The notes under the pieces: model-generated
Databases searched by the model: none
The model's input: the letters and a program-made list of their open reading frames with translations, nothing else
What the model was told of the DNA's origin: nothing
Source: Jiangella gansuensis DSM 44835
GTDB taxonomy: Bacteria > Actinomycetota > Actinomycetes > Jiangellales > Jiangellaceae
Assembly: GCF_000515395.1 (NCBI RefSeq)
Contig: NZ_KI911782.1
Location: forward strand, 5,362,070 to 5,426,069
Length of the DNA stretch: 64,000 nt
Direction: 5' to 3'
Part shown: one piece after another, positions 51,511 to 58,661 of the stretch
How positions within the stretch are numbered: position 1 is the first letter of the stretch
Layout of the letters: every line of letters starts with the position of its first letter
Made by a program: the position numbers and the translations under genes

Positions 51511-52503
51511 CTACCCTCCGCCGGCCCGAGCGTCGACCTCGTAGCTGGTGTTGATGGACTCGAAGAAGTTCACCAACTGCAGCGTGTCGTTCGCGGTCGC
51601 CATCCACTTCGCTGGATTGGCGACACGATAGTGCGGCTCGAACCCGAGCTCCTCCAGCCGCCGGTCCGCGAGGTACTTGACGTACTGGTTGATGTAGTCG
51701 GCGTTCATGCCCAGGATGCCGGTGGGCAGCAGGTCACGGTTGTACAGCTCCTCCATCGCTACCCCGTCGAGGATCATCTGCCGGATCTCGTCGGCGAACT
51801 CCGGCGTCTGCAGCTCGGGATTCTCGTCCAGCACCGTCAGGATGAGGTTGATGCCGAACTTGAGGTGCAGGCTCTCGTCGCGCACGATCCAGTCGACCAG
51901 CGACGCGAAGTTGCGCAGCAGGTTCCGCTGCCGGAAGCTCAGCGCCACCATGAACCCGCTGTAGAACCAGATGCCCTCCAGCACGATGTTGTAGGCCACG
52001 AGGTTGCGGACGAAGTCACGCTTGCCTTCCAGCGTGGTGACGTCGAGGGTCTGCTCGGACATCCGCTTGATGTAGCGGACCTCGAACTCCTCCTTGGCCA
52101 CCATGGACGGCACCGTGGTGTGCGCCTCGTAGGCCCGGGCGCGGTCGATCGGGAACGTCTCCAGCACGTACTCGAAGGCCATCACGTGGTTGGCCTCCTC
52201 CCACATCTGCTTGGCGAGGTACAGATGCGCCTCGGCCGCGTTGAGGTAGGGGTACACGCCGAACGCCAGTGCCTTGTTGACCAGCAGCTCGTTGGGGTTG
52301 AAGTAGCTCATGAGGAACGTCAGCGCGTGCCGTTCCTCGTCGGTCATCCGCTTGAAGTCGGCCATGTCCTCGCCGAGCTGGACCTCGTGCGGGAACCACG
52401 TGTTGGCGACGGCCTGGTTGTACAGCTCGTAGGCCCACGGGTAGCGGACCGGCTTGAGCAGGAGGCCCTCCTGGATGCCGGTGCCGAGAATCGTCGAGTT
52501 CAT
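51511..52503 (-). CDS. nrdB: ribonucleotide reductase beta subunit, class Ic-like (Phe in place of radical Tyr)
   Basis: 330 residues. The ferritin-like metal ligands are in place: E72 (NPNELL), E103 and H106 (WEEANH), E176 (IVLEGIWF), E210 and H213 (RDESLHLKF). The position four after H106, Tyr122 in E. coli R2, is Phe here (HVMAF, F110), and the first ligand, Asp84 in E. coli, is Glu. Both changes are hallmarks of class Ic R2 proteins such as that of Chlamydia, which use a Mn/Fe cofactor instead of a tyrosyl radical. A C-terminal Tyr for radical transfer remains (NTSYEVD). ATG 52503 follows AGGAGAA. It lies between nrdA and mntH. Confidence 0.93.
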   Translation of the reverse strand: MNSTILGTGIQEGLLLKPVRYPWAYELYNQAVANTWFPHEVQLGEDMADFKRMTDEERHALTFLMSYFNPNELLVNKALAFGVYPYLNAAEAHLYLAKQMWEEANHVMAFEYVLETFPIDRARAYEAHTTVPSMVAKEEFEVRYIKRMSEQTLDVTTLEGKRDFVRNLVAYNIVLEGIWFYSGFMVALSFRQRNLLRNFASLVDWIVRDESLHLKFGINLILTVLDENPELQTPEFADEIRQMILDGVAMEELYNRDLLPTGILGMNADYINQYVKYLADRRLEELGFEPHYRVANPAKWMATANDTLQLVNFFESINTSYEVDARAGGG

Positions 52504-52523
52504 CGGGGCGTTCTCCTCTCCGG

Positions 52524-55178
52524 TCACTGGCAGGACTCGCACTGCAGGCGTTCCTGCGGGTCGACGGGGCAGGCGACTGCGTCGTGACCGGTGTCGACGA
52601 CGTCCAGTTCGGCTCCCGCTCCCCTCCCGTTCGGTTGATCTTGGAGTTCTCGCGGAATCAACTGGGACGAATCGGACGGGGATTCCGCGGTTTCTCCAAG
52701 ATCAACCGGGAGCGGCGGCGCGGGCCGGGTGGCGGCGCCGAAGCCTCGCCGGGAACCAGGCGACGGCGCCGTCCCACCACCGGTGCCGACCAGCGACTCG
52801 GACTTGTTCACTCGGACGGTGCTCTGCTCAGCCGTGTGCCGTGGCTTCACGTGCAGGTAGTAGGTGGTCTTCACGCCCTTGGCCCAGGCCGCGGAGTAGA
52901 TGTCCACCATGTCGCCGATGTCACGGGTCTCGAGGTACATGTTCCGGCTGATCGCCTGGTCGATCCACTTCTGTGCCCGCGCCGCGACCTCGATGAACGC
53001 GTACGGGGAGAGCTGGAACGACGTCTTGTAGACGGCCTTGAGGTCGGCCGGGACCGCTGGCAGCGCCGCCACGTCGCCCTGTGCGCGCAGCAGGTCCTCA
53101 CGCACTTCCTCCCACAGCCCGCGCGCTTTGAGAGCAGCCACCAGGTTGGGGTTGACCTCGAGGAACTTGCCGGAGCTGGTGGCCCGGCTGAACAGCTGCG
53201 AGAACCGCGGGTCCAGACCGGGGGTGGTGCCGGCCACCAGGCCGATGGACGCCGTCGGGGCAATGGCCATGAGGGTGGCGTTGCGCATGCCGCCGCGCAC
53301 CTTGGCACGCAGGCCGTCCCAGTCCAGCCGGCTGGACCGCGACACGGTGACGGGCACCCCGCGCTCACGCTCGGCCACGTCGACGGTGTCGATGGGCACC
53401 ATGCCCTGGCTCCACCGGGACCCCTCGAAGTTGGCGTACGAACCGCGTTCGCGTGCCAGGTCGGCGCTCTGGTCGATGGCGTGGAAGCTGATGAACTCCA
53501 TCACCCGGTCGATGAGGTCGTACGCCTGCTCGCTCTCGTACGACCAGCCGAGCCGCTCCACGACGTCGCTGAAGCCCATGATGCCCAGGCCGACGGCCCG
53601 GTTGAGCTCGTTGGAGCGCTCGGACTCCGGCACCGACGAGATGGTGATGTCGATCAGGTTGTCCAACTGGCGTACCGCCAGCCGGACGCTGTCGCGCAAC
53701 CGGTCCCAATCAATACGAAGGCCCGCTGTACTTCTGGCCGCGTTCGCTTCCTCACCTCGCCGCTCCACGAGGTGCCGGGACAGGTTCACCGACGCCAGGT
53801 TGCAGACGGCGATGTTGTCCCGGTCCTGCGGCAGGGTGATCTCGGTGCACAGGTTGGACAGGTGGATCGTGCCGGTGTTGTTGTTCAGAGCCCGGTTGTT
53901 GATGGTGTCCTTCCAGGTCAGCCAGGGGTGCGAGGTGGTCTGCAGACTGATCAGGATGGCCCGGAACTGCTCGCGTGCCTTCATCTTGGTGAAGGTCCGC
54001 AGCTCCCCGGCCTCGGCGGCGGCGACGTACTCGGCGTAGCGCCGGCTGAAGGCGGCTCCATAGAGCTCGGGAAGGTCCGGGACGTCGAGCGGGTCGAACA
54101 GGTACCAGTCGTCGTCGTTCGCGACTCGGGTCATGAACTCGTCGGAGATCCAGACCGCGGTGTTGGCCGTGCGGACCCGGCGGTAGGGGTCGCCGGCGTT
54201 CTGCCGCAGGTCCAGGAACTGCTGGAAGTCCTGGTGCCAGTTCTCGATGTAGAAGCACAGCGCGCCGAACTTCTTGCCGCCGCGCGAGACCGCCCGCAAC
54301 GTCGAGTCAATGGTGTGCATGAACGGGATCGGCCCGGTCGAGACGGTGTTGTTGCTGCGGATGGGCGAGCCCTCGGCGCGCAGCTTCGTCACCGAGAGCC
54401 CGATGCCGCCGGTGCCCTTCGTCAGCCACATGACGTCGCGCACGCTCTTGGCGATGTGCTCGATGTCGTCGTGCATCTCCATGACGAAGCAGTTCGACAG
54501 TTGCGCGTACGCCGTGCCGGCGTTCACCAGCGTGGATCCGGCCGCGAGATAGTCGAGCCGGGACATCTTCTCGTAGAACGCCAGTGCGGCGGACGTGGCG
54601 GCCGCGGTTCCGGGCTCGTTCAGCGACAGGCCCATCGCCACCCGCATCCAGAAGAACTGCGGCACTTCGAGGCGGTGACCGTCCCGGTCGTTGATCATGT
54701 ACCGGTTGTTCATGGTGACAGCACCGGTGTAGGTGAGCAGGTCGTCGCGGGACGGGTCCAGCGCGCCGGCCAGCCGGTCCAGGTCGAAGTGAGTCGCCAG
54801 CCGCTCGTCGAGGAGCCCGGCGGCCACGCCCTCCGCTACGTAGCCGGGGAACCTCGTGCGGTGCAGGTCGGCGAGCTCCGCAGGGCCTTCGTAGTCGCCC
54901 AGCACTCGCTTGTAGACGGTCTTGAGCAGGACCCTGGCCGCGACGGTGTCGAACGCGGGGTCGTCGCGGACGTTCTGCAGCGCGACCTGGACCACCGCCT
55001 CGTCCAGCTGCTGGCTGGTGATGCCGTCAAAGAGGGTGATCTCGAGTTCGGACTGCAGTTGGGTGACGCGGGCGACCTGGTTGTCCAACCCGACGCTGGC
55101 GGCCTCGATGGCGGCCGCGATCTTGTAGCCGTCGTAGGGCTCGACCGATCCGTCACGTTTGACGACGTTGACGCTCAT
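52524..55178 (-). CDS. nrdA: ribonucleotide reductase alpha subunit (class I)
   Basis: 884 residues. ATP-cone about 1-93; catalytic barrel with the redox Cys pair C230 (AQLSNCFVMEM) and C459 (NIAVCNLASVN), radical Cys C444 (SNLCTEITL), radical-transfer YYLHVKPR near 790, and a flexible C-terminal tail with the regenerating Cys pair (CESCQ, C880/C883). It reduces ribonucleoside diphosphates. The start at 55178 follows GAGGAGAGAG; upstream is a ~390-nt leader with an AdoCbl riboswitch. Residues about 824-849 in the tail are coded by a 77-bp palindromic repeat inserted in frame, lengthening the linker before CESCQ. First gene of nrdA-nrdB-mntH. Confidence 0.95.
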   Translation of the reverse strand: MSVNVVKRDGSVEPYDGYKIAAAIEAASVGLDNQVARVTQLQSELEITLFDGITSQQLDEAVVQVALQNVRDDPAFDTVAARVLLKTVYKRVLGDYEGPAELADLHRTRFPGYVAEGVAAGLLDERLATHFDLDRLAGALDPSRDDLLTYTGAVTMNNRYMINDRDGHRLEVPQFFWMRVAMGLSLNEPGTAAATSAALAFYEKMSRLDYLAAGSTLVNAGTAYAQLSNCFVMEMHDDIEHIAKSVRDVMWLTKGTGGIGLSVTKLRAEGSPIRSNNTVSTGPIPFMHTIDSTLRAVSRGGKKFGALCFYIENWHQDFQQFLDLRQNAGDPYRRVRTANTAVWISDEFMTRVANDDDWYLFDPLDVPDLPELYGAAFSRRYAEYVAAAEAGELRTFTKMKAREQFRAILISLQTTSHPWLTWKDTINNRALNNNTGTIHLSNLCTEITLPQDRDNIAVCNLASVNLSRHLVERRGEEANAARSTAGLRIDWDRLRDSVRLAVRQLDNLIDITISSVPESERSNELNRAVGLGIMGFSDVVERLGWSYESEQAYDLIDRVMEFISFHAIDQSADLARERGSYANFEGSRWSQGMVPIDTVDVAERERGVPVTVSRSSRLDWDGLRAKVRGGMRNATLMAIAPTASIGLVAGTTPGLDPRFSQLFSRATSSGKFLEVNPNLVAALKARGLWEEVREDLLRAQGDVAALPAVPADLKAVYKTSFQLSPYAFIEVAARAQKWIDQAISRNMYLETRDIGDMVDIYSAAWAKGVKTTYYLHVKPRHTAEQSTVRVNKSESLVGTGGGTAPSPGSRRGFGAATRPAPPLPVDLGETAESPSDSSQLIPRELQDQPNGRGAGAELDVVDTGHDAVACPVDPQERLQCESCQ
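52632..52708. repeat. palindromic element family B, in-frame copy inside nrdA
   Basis: Outer arms CGGTTGATCTTGGAG and CTCCAAGATCAACCG, inner arms CGCGGAATC and GATTCCGCG: a nested 77-bp palindrome that shares its outer arms with the intergenic element at 13413-13488. It is read through by nrdA without a stop and encodes about 26 residues of the C-terminal linker. Confidence 0.88.
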
Positions 55179-55365
55179 GCTCTCTCCTCGCGAGCTCGGC
55201 TGGCTCGGCCCGCGGCCGGCGCCGGGGGAAGCCCAGGAGAGATGCGCCGTCGGCGTCGCGCCGGGACGAGAAACGCCCGGAGCGGCGGTGAGTACGTCGC
55301 CGTATCGCCCCCTGGCCCCTCCCTCGGGGGCCGCGGACCACCACACGCGGTTGGGCGTGCGGTGC

Positions 55366-56733: not shown

Positions 56734-56750
56734 CCCGCTCTGCACGCGCA

Positions 56751-56804
56751 CATGACCATGTTCCCTTACGGCCCTTTCGCGGACCGCGAGGGAACATGAT
56801 CATG
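56751..56804. terminator. 16-bp-arm hairpin between convergent genes
   Basis: CATGACCATGTTCCCT pairs with AGGGAACATGATCATG with one mismatch and a 22-nt loop. It lies between the EamA gene and the XRE-TPR regulator and fits a bidirectional terminator; the outer TGATC on one arm echoes the other palindromes. Confidence 0.55.
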
Positions 56805-56821
56805 GACGAGCTCGACGGCCC

Positions 56822-58228
56822 CTAGGTGCTGGTCAGCTCCGAACGCGCGATCTCGATACCAGCGGTCGGGTCTTCGTCGACCATGCCGGTGCCCAGCCGC
56901 GGCGCCACCCGGACCGAGCGCAGCGCGTTGTCGTAGGCGTCGAGGGCCTCGTCGGCGCGACCGAGGTCACGGTAGAGGTCGGCCAGCTCACGCCAGGCCG
57001 ACGCGGCGACCCGGGAGGCACCCATGGACTCCAGCATGGTCGCGGCCAGCGCCGCCACCCGGATGCTCTCGTCGACCTCGCCCTGCGCGCGCAGGATGCG
57101 CGCCAGGCTGAGCTGGGCCAGCGCGGTACCGACCCGCGGCTGCTCGCGGCCCAGCTCGGTCAGGGCAGCCTCCGCCGCCGTCCGTGCCTCGTCGAGCCGG
57201 CCCAACTGGAGCAGGGCGTCGGCGCGCCGGACGTGGAAGGTGGCGATGTCGGTCTTGCCGCCGTAACGCTTGATGTTGTCCTCGACGCCGTCGAGTATCT
57301 CGATCGACTTCTGCGCGTCCGGCTCGCTGCCTTGCAGCAGCAGCCACGCGTGCGCCACCCGCAGCCGGGCGAGATTGCGCAGGTCGTCACCCTCACCGAA
57401 CATGGCGAGCGCCCGGTCGACCAGGTTGAGCGCCAGGGCCAGCTCACCACGCGACTCCGCGACGAGGGAGGCGTTCCAGTACGCCGCGCCGCGGGTCTGC
57501 GGGGCGCCGATGCGATCGGCGGCGGCCACCAGCTCGGCGGCGAGCGCCTTGGACCGCACCATGTCGCCGCGGCCGCCGTAGGCGCCCAGCACGGTGCACC
57601 CGAGCCGGATGTACTCGTCGGTGCTCTCCAGGCCGAGGTCGGCCGCCGAGCGGCGGGCCTCCTCACCGATCTGGATGGCCATGTCGAAGTCGCCGGCGCG
57701 GTCATAGCAGCGGGTCAGCGCGATCGCGACGTCGAGCCAGGACTGGACCGCGGGCGACTGGCGCGCCTCGTCGGCCAACTCCGACAGCAGCTCGATGGCG
57801 CCCTCGAGGTCACCCTTGAGCTCGCGGGCGAGGGCCCGGCCGAGCCGAGCGCCACGGCTCTGCTCGTCGTTCAGGCCCGGATCGCCGACCAGCTCGGTGA
57901 ACTGCTCGTACGCCGCGTCGGCGCGGCCTTCGCGCAGCGCCATCTCGGCGCGGCCGAGCGCGAGGCGGGCCTTGGTGCGCACGGACGCGTCGACACCGTC
58001 GCGCAGATACTCGACGTCGATGCGCAGCCGCTCGGCGATGTGCGCGAGCGCCGACGCCGCCGGCTGCCGGCGTCCGCTCTCGACGAGGGAGACGTAACTG
58101 GGAGACAGCATGCCCTCAGCGATCTCGGCCTGGGACAGGCCGAGCTCCAACCGGCGGGACCGGATACGCTGCCCGACGGGCGTCGGGAGCGGCGCCTCGT
58201 CCACTGTTGCTGGCTGGTCTTCTGTCAT
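56822..58228 (-). CDS. XRE-family HTH regulator with TPR domain, peptide-sensor-like
   Basis: 468 residues. N-terminal Cro/CI HTH (about 17-76): VGQRIRSRRLELGLSQAEIA, SPSYVSLVESGRRQPAASAL. The rest (about 85-445) is all-helical TPR-like repeats (examples ARLALGRAEMALREGRADAA, VAIALTRCYDRAGDFDMAIQ, WRELADLYRDLGRADEALDA). HTH plus TPR is the layout of RRNPP quorum-sensing receptors that bind short peptides, although TPR-type XRE regulators with other ligands exist. Directly divergent is a gene for a 40-residue secreted peptide, and an inverted repeat lies between them. No kinase or other partner is adjacent. Binding of that peptide is inferred. Confidence 0.88.
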   Translation of the reverse strand: MTEDQPATVDEAPLPTPVGQRIRSRRLELGLSQAEIAEGMLSPSYVSLVESGRRQPAASALAHIAERLRIDVEYLRDGVDASVRTKARLALGRAEMALREGRADAAYEQFTELVGDPGLNDEQSRGARLGRALARELKGDLEGAIELLSELADEARQSPAVQSWLDVAIALTRCYDRAGDFDMAIQIGEEARRSAADLGLESTDEYIRLGCTVLGAYGGRGDMVRSKALAAELVAAADRIGAPQTRGAAYWNASLVAESRGELALALNLVDRALAMFGEGDDLRNLARLRVAHAWLLLQGSEPDAQKSIEILDGVEDNIKRYGGKTDIATFHVRRADALLQLGRLDEARTAAEAALTELGREQPRVGTALAQLSLARILRAQGEVDESIRVAALAATMLESMGASRVAASAWRELADLYRDLGRADEALDAYDNALRSVRVAPRLGTGMVDEDPTAGIEIARSELTST

Positions 58229-58235
58229 GACAGTA

Positions 58236-58269
58236 TTGGACTACAGCCAGTCACATTTTGCCAGTCCAA
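58236..58269. promoter_or_regulatory. inverted repeat TTGGACT-N20-AGTCCAA between regulator and peptide gene
   Basis: TTGGACT (58236-58242) and AGTCCAA (58263-58269) are perfect complements inside the 68-bp divergent region; the direct repeat GCCAGTC (58246-58252 and 58260-58266) lies within. The left arm is 8 bp from the regulator start codon, the right 28 bp from the peptide start, a suitable position for the XRE protein to control both. Confidence 0.5.
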
Positions 58270-58296
58270 ATGCCGACTTTAGGAGTTCGATCAAGG

Positions 58297-58419
58297 ATGG
58301 GGCGTGTCAAGCGAGTTGCCATCGCCATCGCCGCGGCCTTCGCGCTCTCGTTCGTCGTGTCTGCTCCCGCCGTCGCTGGGACCAACACCGTGAACGACCC
58401 GGGGATGTACTGCTGCTGA
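58297..58419 (+). CDS. 40-residue secreted peptide, candidate signalling peptide
   Basis: ATG 58297 with AGGAG 12-16 bp upstream. The product has a short basic N-terminus (MGRVKR), a hydrophobic core (VAIAIAAAFALSFVV) and a signal-peptidase-like SAPAVA site, leaving a mature tail of about 13 residues, GTNTVNDPGMYCC, ending in two Cys. A strong stem-loop terminator follows 18 bp after the stop, so it is its own transcription unit. It is divergent from the XRE-TPR regulator. Sec-exported pro-peptides next to HTH-TPR receptors are typical of RRNPP signalling; processing and re-import are inferred. It is too short for most gene finders. Confidence 0.7.
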   Translation: MGRVKRVAIAIAAAFALSFVVSAPAVAGTNTVNDPGMYCC

Positions 58420-58436
58420 CGCAGCGGTTCTAAGAC

Positions 58437-58486
58437 CACAGACGGCGTCCGGCGTCTCGCCCCCCGAACGCTGGACGCCGTCTGTG
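58437..58486 (+). terminator. strong terminator after the peptide gene
   Basis: CACAGACGGCGTCC and GGACGCCGTCTGTG pair perfectly (14 bp), with further G-C pairs towards the loop (GCGT/ACGC region); CCTCC follows. It ends the peptide transcript 18 bp past its stop codon. Confidence 0.75.
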
Positions 58487-58661
58487 CCTCCTTCACCCGA
58501 CCGACCCGGGGCGGGTGGCGAAGATTGCCGTCGATGACGTTCGTCGAGGTCACAGCCATGTGAGCGGCTCGCCCGTACCCGAGGGCGGACCGAAGGACCG
58601 AGCTGGGTCCGAACCCGCGCTCGATCGCGCCCGCGGCGCCATGAGCGCGCCCGCGGCGCGG

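Follow-up and report, generated by a model that had tools for sequence, protein, structure and literature searches.

A conserved pair of TPR regulator and short peptide precursor in Actinomycetota as a candidate RRNPP-like signalling module

The RRNPP systems, which include PlcR-PapR, NprR-NprX, Rap-Phr, Rgg-SHP, and ComR-ComS, combine an HTH-TPR receptor (Rap lacks the HTH) with a short precursor that is encoded beside it and carries an export signal. The mature signal is described, in a passage of PMC6540685, as a linear C-terminal peptide of approximately 5–10 residues. The parts of PMC10075063 available here describe the application of RRNPP_detector to Firmicutes and viruses, and present actinobacterial signals as typically small molecules made by enzymes. 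Cyclic or modified peptides are also mentioned in a review from 2016 on quorum sensing in actinobacteria (PMC4748050), and a word search of its available text gave no occurrence of RRNPP. In the available parts of two reviews from 2026 (PMC13220807, PMC13419125), RRNPP appears in connection with Firmicutes or in the reference list only. The earlier note on this DNA had stated that a comparable actinobacterial pair with a Cys-Cys-ended peptide would be new; no description of such a pair in Actinomycetota was found in the open-access literature exclusive of preprints and subscription papers.

In this study, we examined a regulator gene and a divergent small gene in the window (the whole stretch of 64,000 nucleotides that was analysed). 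They had been read previously as a peptide-signalling pair, and this reading was supported by conserved pairing, hypervariable tails, and changes in the inner helices of the receptor. Judging from sequence features, the two genes probably form a peptide signalling module working like an RRNPP quorum-sensing pair. As in the RRNPP systems, an HTH-TPR receptor is encoded beside a short precursor with a predicted export signal, the tails are hypervariable, and the TPR superhelix is like that of NprR and Rap; the likeness to RRNPP receptors is one of shared fold, homology being a separate matter. The pair differs from them in its phylum, in its divergent orientation, in its precursors of 40–43 aa, in the Cys-Cys end of most members, in the tail, for which the predicted cut would leave 13 residues in the window, and in a receptor family that lies outside the RRNPP_detector survey of Firmicutes and viruses as described in part of PMC10075063.

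Layout of the locus and fold of the regulator

The host genome of the window is 5.59 Mb in a single contig. The features of the locus are summarized in Table 1. The divergent arrangement around a 68-bp gap and the HTH-TPR layout had both been claimed before and agreed with the measured positions; the TPR repeats reach to the C-terminus. The neighbour of the regulator is an EamA transporter gene convergent with it, and that of the peptide gene is a class I/II aminotransferase gene on the opposite strand; the regulator-peptide pair therefore stands alone. Between the convergent EamA and regulator genes, a long near-perfect inverted repeat was observed at 56741–56813 (z -7.5, minus strand), which is probably a two-way terminator; an Rfam microRNA match at this position was far under its gathering score. 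Further away, at 51514–55346 on the minus strand, ordinary genes for the small and large subunits of ribonucleotide reductase were found.

Table 1 Features of the regulator-peptide locus, with positions counted in the window.
Feature	Position	Strand	Remarks
XRE-type HTH + TPR regulator, putative peptide receptor	56822..58228	-	468 aa; HTH_3 + TPR repeats
HTH_3 DNA-binding domain of regulator	58004..58165	-	residues 22-75
TPR superhelix of regulator, putative peptide-binding part	56909..57982	-	approximately residues 83-440
Divergent intergenic region, putative shared promoter/operator	58229..58296	.	68 bp
Inverted repeat TTGGACT N20 AGTCCAA	58236..58269	.	exact in window, partly conserved among relatives
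AGGAG ribosome-binding site of peptide gene	58281..58285	+	11 nt 5' of ATG
Peptide precursor gene	58297..58419	+	40 aa, MGRVKRVAIAIAAAFALSFVVSAPAVAGTNTVNDPGMYCC; ATG at 58297
Predicted signal part (residues 1-27, AVA end)	58297..58377	+	cleavage inferred
Tail GTNTVNDPGMYCC	58378..58416	+	13 residues after predicted cut
Covarying hairpin, invariant apical CGTCTCGCCCCCCGAACG	58437..58486	+	terminator or RNA element

In the AlphaFold2 model, which was built with ten orthologues, the TPR superhelix had block pLDDT values of 74–96 and the HTH was poorly resolved (mean 76.8, pTM 0.66). Among the PDB fold matches listed, NprR (Z 25.8) and Rap:CSF (Z 24.8) were found with other Rap chains near the top, whereas APPBP2 (Z 28.5) and LGN (Z 26.2) exceeded the RRNPP members and MalT (Z 24.6) was about equal to them. 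Since unrelated TPR proteins equal or exceed the RRNPP members, the fold alone decides nothing. In the profile comparison, PlcR was the highest natural chain spanning the HTH and the first TPRs among 60 matches listed (E 4e-15). With regard to shared descent with the Firmicutes receptors, this E value and the Z values of 24–26 for NprR and Rap are to be set against unrelated TPR proteins that score as high or higher. Weak similarity over the TPR part was also observed with the actinobacterial NsdA family of TPR-like regulators (NCBIfam NF053720), at 32.5 bits and thus under the curated family cut-off of 75 bits.

The peptide gene and its flanking elements

The precursor has a charged and hydrophobic N-terminus followed by AVA at residues 25–27 and the 13-residue tail. 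As assessed by charge, hydropathy, and the AxA motif, the signal part is predicted to be an export signal, in the window and among the other precursors. The Cys-Cys-ended tail and the ribosome-binding site proposed in the earlier note were confirmed, and its Sec-type signal with the AVA site stands as a prediction. Among 513 small-ORF stops in the window (25–90 aa, both strands), a CC end was found in 2 and a signal-like N-terminus in 6, and the peptide gene was the only one of the 513 to combine them. The peptides tested gave no match above the cut-offs of NCBIfam and Pfam, and none under E 0.05 in PHROGs.

The reading frame of the peptide gene was kept in the relatives. Its dN/dS was approximately 0.40, both in 13 relatives of equal length and in all 20, and that of the regulator was 0.31 and 0.25 in the same two sets; in the remaining 7 relatives alone, the values were 0.27 for the peptide and 0.10 for the regulator. 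These values are rough, because they were obtained by simple counting at high synonymous divergence. When the 13 peptides that are exactly 40 aa long were compared, pairwise differences were most frequent at third codon positions (1284 vs 897 and 672). Residues 28–34 were variable in these 13 peptides, and the end was well conserved, with P in 13/13, G in 11, a variable position, Y or F in 12, and C in 13 at each of the last two positions, giving the consensus P-G-x-[FY]-C-C with few exceptions. These results show that the peptide ORF is under purifying selection.

The exact inverted repeat between the two genes, which had also been pointed out before, occurs once in the window and was found in 0/100 shuffles. 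Its 7-bp arms are incompletely conserved, one arm being altered in several relatives, and the motif TGAC...ATT..AC.ACA....GTCA in the left part was kept across relatives. A promoter scan called no sigma-70-type site in the 68-bp region. Besides the known site, a search of the own genome for the operator-like motif gave no second site within 2 mismatches and one with 3 mismatches; hence, no regulon was seen.

Downstream of the peptide gene, the stretch 58420–58520 showed marked structure (z -4.7). The apical 18 nt of the hairpin were identical in 20/20 relatives. When 11 of the 20 relatives were compared, leaving out near-copies and locus L024, 9 of 23 pairs had a change in each of the two partners, and pairing was possible in 98% of cells. 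The hairpin is unique in its own genome up to 2 mismatches, and no Rfam family came near its gathering score for it. The earlier note was only partly right in assigning the peptide gene a terminator of its own: a strong covarying hairpin is present, but a T-run is missing from the copy in the window, and a scan for terminators called none there. The hairpin may serve as a terminator, or else as an RNA element whose loop is C-rich. We considered 6C RNA, of which the six-C apical run is presumably reminiscent, and discarded it, with no such match in the Rfam results listed.

The strong hairpin after the Cys codons could also speak for a cysteine-sensing leader, in which the Cys codons stall ribosomes and attenuate the downstream gene. 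Polycysteine leader ORFs in mycobacteria were reportedly described by Canestrari et al. in 2020. Such leaders do exist in actinobacteria and are likewise short ORFs with adjacent Cys codons, as far as the available part of PMC9031893 describes them. Compared with the leaders in that part of PMC9031893, the gene here has a signal-like N-terminus, a ribosome-binding site, Cys-free homologues, and no co-directional downstream gene. The next gene, the aminotransferase gene, lies on the opposite strand, so that no close co-directional gene is left to attenuate. Furthermore, the ORF has a ribosome-binding site, its protein sequence is conserved beyond the Cys codons, and homologues in another class have no Cys in their tails. 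A leader function is thus very improbable, and we continue with the peptide precursor as the preferred reading.

Conservation of the pairing and variation of the tails

The regulator is 94% identical to its Jiangella asiatica orthologue, and a regulator match was obtained in 24 of 60 genomes (own included), 21 of which share the family label of the window. The earlier note had proposed to look for the small ORF beside orthologous regulators, and the refuting result that it named, absence of the ORF there, was not obtained. A divergent, signal-bearing peptide of 40–43 aa ending in CC was found in 20/20 assessable orthologues of the own family, not counting the 21st (L025), which is cut by a contig end, and a CC-tailed one beside 65/116 regulators of the wider family. 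The pair was also present in 9/9 further records (one MAG, and eight genomes bearing the names Jiangella or Haloactinopolyspora), which largely duplicate genomes of the 60-genome search.

With a profile of ten regulators, matches were found in 52/296 genomes of the class at 1e-40 and in 9/396 genomes of the phylum, own included. A broader profile of 24 rows gave matches in 14/27 genomes of a second class, 31/61 of one family, 11/101 of one order, and 15/15 of one genus. Among 122 non-redundant regulators, a set to which the 15-genome genus does not belong, 65 had a divergent signal-like ORF with a CC tail, 10 one with a W-P tail, and 9 another one; 33 had none, including L076, whose CC peptide is co-directional, and 5 were not assessable.

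For the control comparison, L065, in which the contig ends inside the candidate peptide, was dropped from the 117 assessable regulators. The observed counts among these 116 (CC 65, W-P 10, other 9, none 32) were compared with dinucleotide shuffles (CC 0.1, W-P 0, other 7.6) and with the opposite strand of the same DNA (CC 1, W-P 0, other 11). CC and W-P tails are consequently far above chance, and the remaining group as a whole is not. A chance open frame beside the regulator would fit the abundance of small ORFs, with 513 stops in the window, and the 9 remaining ORFs against 7.6 in shuffles. However, the 65 CC and 10 W-P tails against 0.1 and 0 in shuffles refute it, and the kept reading frame and the dN/dS of approximately 0.40 also speak against it, so that its probability is close to nil. 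Within the remaining group, five precursors (L071–L074 and L152) were taken as real, because their signal part and position are like those of CC precursors and they lie in one clade.

CC peptides were spread over 10 family labels and W-P peptides over 3, and 75/116 regulators of the wider family had a CC or W-P tail next to them. A CC peptide was also found in a named record of Nonomuraea gerenzanensis in the plasmid collection. Among 83 regulators of at least 400 bits, 62 had a CC, 5 a W-P, and 5 another peptide; of the 11 left without one, L065 is cut by the contig end, L076 has the other orientation, and nine had none in the scanned stretch. The peptide was absent from 12/22 regulators at 300–400 bits, from 10/12 under 300 bits, and, as a CC peptide, from the second paralogue in family f17. 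The pairing is therefore limited to one part of the regulator family, within which losses have occurred. The tree implies that the CC label changed at least 10 times on starred branches, where gains and losses are indistinguishable and some long branches are unsurely placed. Upstream of the second f17 paralogue and co-directional with it, a conserved 52-aa ORF (MQxKKxLK...) was observed in L029, L090, L091, and L093.

In the plasmid collection, 16 records matched; of the 7 examined, 6 (five Streptomyces and one Streptosporangium) had no CC peptide. On the Streptomyces goshikiensis plasmid NZ_CP115937 (L103:4583–5090), two small hypothetical genes of 215 and 212 bp follow a regulator relative co-directionally, and at least the second small scanned ORF looks secreted. 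A phage origin was considered and rejected: in the viral-contig scan of 14 loci, the best profile score was 76 bits, none being like a full-length family member, and the only phage-collection match, MT836207, which lies at the end of a contig and matches 63% of the query, was without the peptide. Neighbouring genes vary between families. In both f17 loci tested, a CopC-domain gene follows the regulator co-directionally (L071:4351–4944 and L075:725–1309), for which a link to copper and simple neighbourhood are both possible.

Subsequently, the tails were compared. In an order of small genomes, CC was present in the tail at 10/10 assessable loci and was followed by 1–5 residues in six of them. 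In the second class, precursors of 25–33 aa with W-P tails were found in 10 loci of three families, and no peptide at L128, L129, and L132. These tails end in FPWPK, YPWPK, NWPKH, GWPKH, NWPHH, and similar words, as in GFPWPK. Judged by eye, a usual signal-peptidase cut would leave approximately 4–6 residues of these precursors, which is near the 5–10 residues given for RRNPP signals in the cited passage of PMC6540685. Some CC tails contain W-P words (NWPKCC in L087 and DWPGMCC in L020), and such shared words may link the two tail types.

In the genus around G037, the regulator was present in 15/15 genomes. Over the 91 pairs formed by 14 of the 15 peptides (that of L133 was seen separately), the mean identity of the receptors was 0.72, that of precursor residues 1–28 was 0.58, and that of the ten residues preceding CC was 0.09. 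In one pair, the identity was 0.94 for the receptor, 0.89 for the signal, and 0.10 for the tail. The tails were compared ungapped, which lowers the identity where lengths differ, and some close pairs had values of 0.4–0.5. Such tail variation within a genus resembles the pherotypes of known peptide systems.

On the receptor side, helix-by-helix variability in this genus is not decisive, because the outer helices vary too. Fixed differences were found for the f17 clade without CC, when its five receptors were compared with six sister receptors that have CC peptides. Seven differences were fixed (207, 212, 248, 285, 292, 375, and 414 in window numbering), and all of them lie in first TPR helices. 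By TPR convention, these helices form the inner face. The changed sites were 7 of 76 conserved inner-helix sites vs 0 of 141 others (Fisher 0.0005, or approximately 0.004 when corrected for eight contrasts), in a test that concerns one clade, depends on the phylogeny, and leaves out L107, a plasmid locus inside the CC-less clade without a peptide. For the remaining seven clade contrasts, of which some are reciprocal, the values were 0.057–0.93. As for a thiol partner, neither of the regulator cysteines 174 and 211 tracks the CC class. At receptor column 70, Cys is the most frequent residue (61%) among the CC receptors that do not belong to the own family, Val in W-P receptors, and Ile is present in the window; accordingly, column 70 offers the window receptor no simple thiol partner.

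These results bear on whether the peptide could be an exported effector, for example metal-binding, thiol-binding, or antimicrobial, under the control of a TPR regulator that itself responds to a different cue. A metal or a thiol could plausibly be bound at the Cys-Cys end, and the CopC genes of the two f17 loci would suit such a role. However, three families of the second class have homologous pairs whose tails contain no Cys, and the f17 clade lost the CC, although the CopC locus L071 belongs to that very clade. Moreover, the neighbours differ between families, and hypervariable tails together with inner-helix changes that track the tail type would be unexplained by an unrelated ligand. An effector is thus an unlikely explanation, and we return to the signalling module as the preferred one.

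Proposed mechanism and its meaning

In the proposed signalling module, the precursor would be exported via Sec and cut by signal peptidase, and the C-terminal tail, probably its last 5–8 residues with the Cys-Cys end, would accumulate outside. Uncut, the tail in the window would have 13 residues, longer than the usual 5–10. The tail would then be re-imported by an oligopeptide permease. The own genome encodes 25 SBP_bac_5 proteins, a precondition for uptake and no more, such proteins being common (found in 11/14 control genomes). Inside the cell, the tail may bind to the regulator within the inner groove of its TPR superhelix, as the covariation suggests, and binding would alter the hold of the regulator on the 68-bp region and perhaps on other sites. 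Given the layout, such an altered hold on the 68-bp region would mean that the pair controls itself.

On their own, adjacency and coevolution do not require export and re-import, and the small protein might instead act on the regulator inside the same cell, or report the state of the export machinery, with no signal between cells. Against this, many precursors have a charged start, a hydrophobic core, and AxA-type ends, and a conserved signal part followed by a hypervariable tail fits export and cutting. In addition, the precursors of the second class would leave the short remainders mentioned above after a standard cut, as judged by eye. Action within the same cell is accordingly quite unlikely, and signalling between cells by the exported tail is retained as the preferred reading. 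More tentatively, the pairs may represent an Actinomycetota-wide family of intracellular pheromone receptors with diversifying pherotypes, in which the Cys-Cys that ends most signals of the class seen in the window is read by the receptor and the signal is perhaps gated by thiol redox or metal; we regard this wider proposal as possible rather than probable.

Taken together, these findings point to peptide signalling of a kind that, in the open literature searched, is described only from Firmicutes. A gene-encoded pair of receptor and peptide in at least 13 family labels would give a phylum that is known for its antibiotics a signalling route that can be tested directly. As the genome itself provides the sequence of the candidate signal, such signalling can be tested immediately with synthetic peptides and reporters, for which the naturally varying tails serve as specificity controls.
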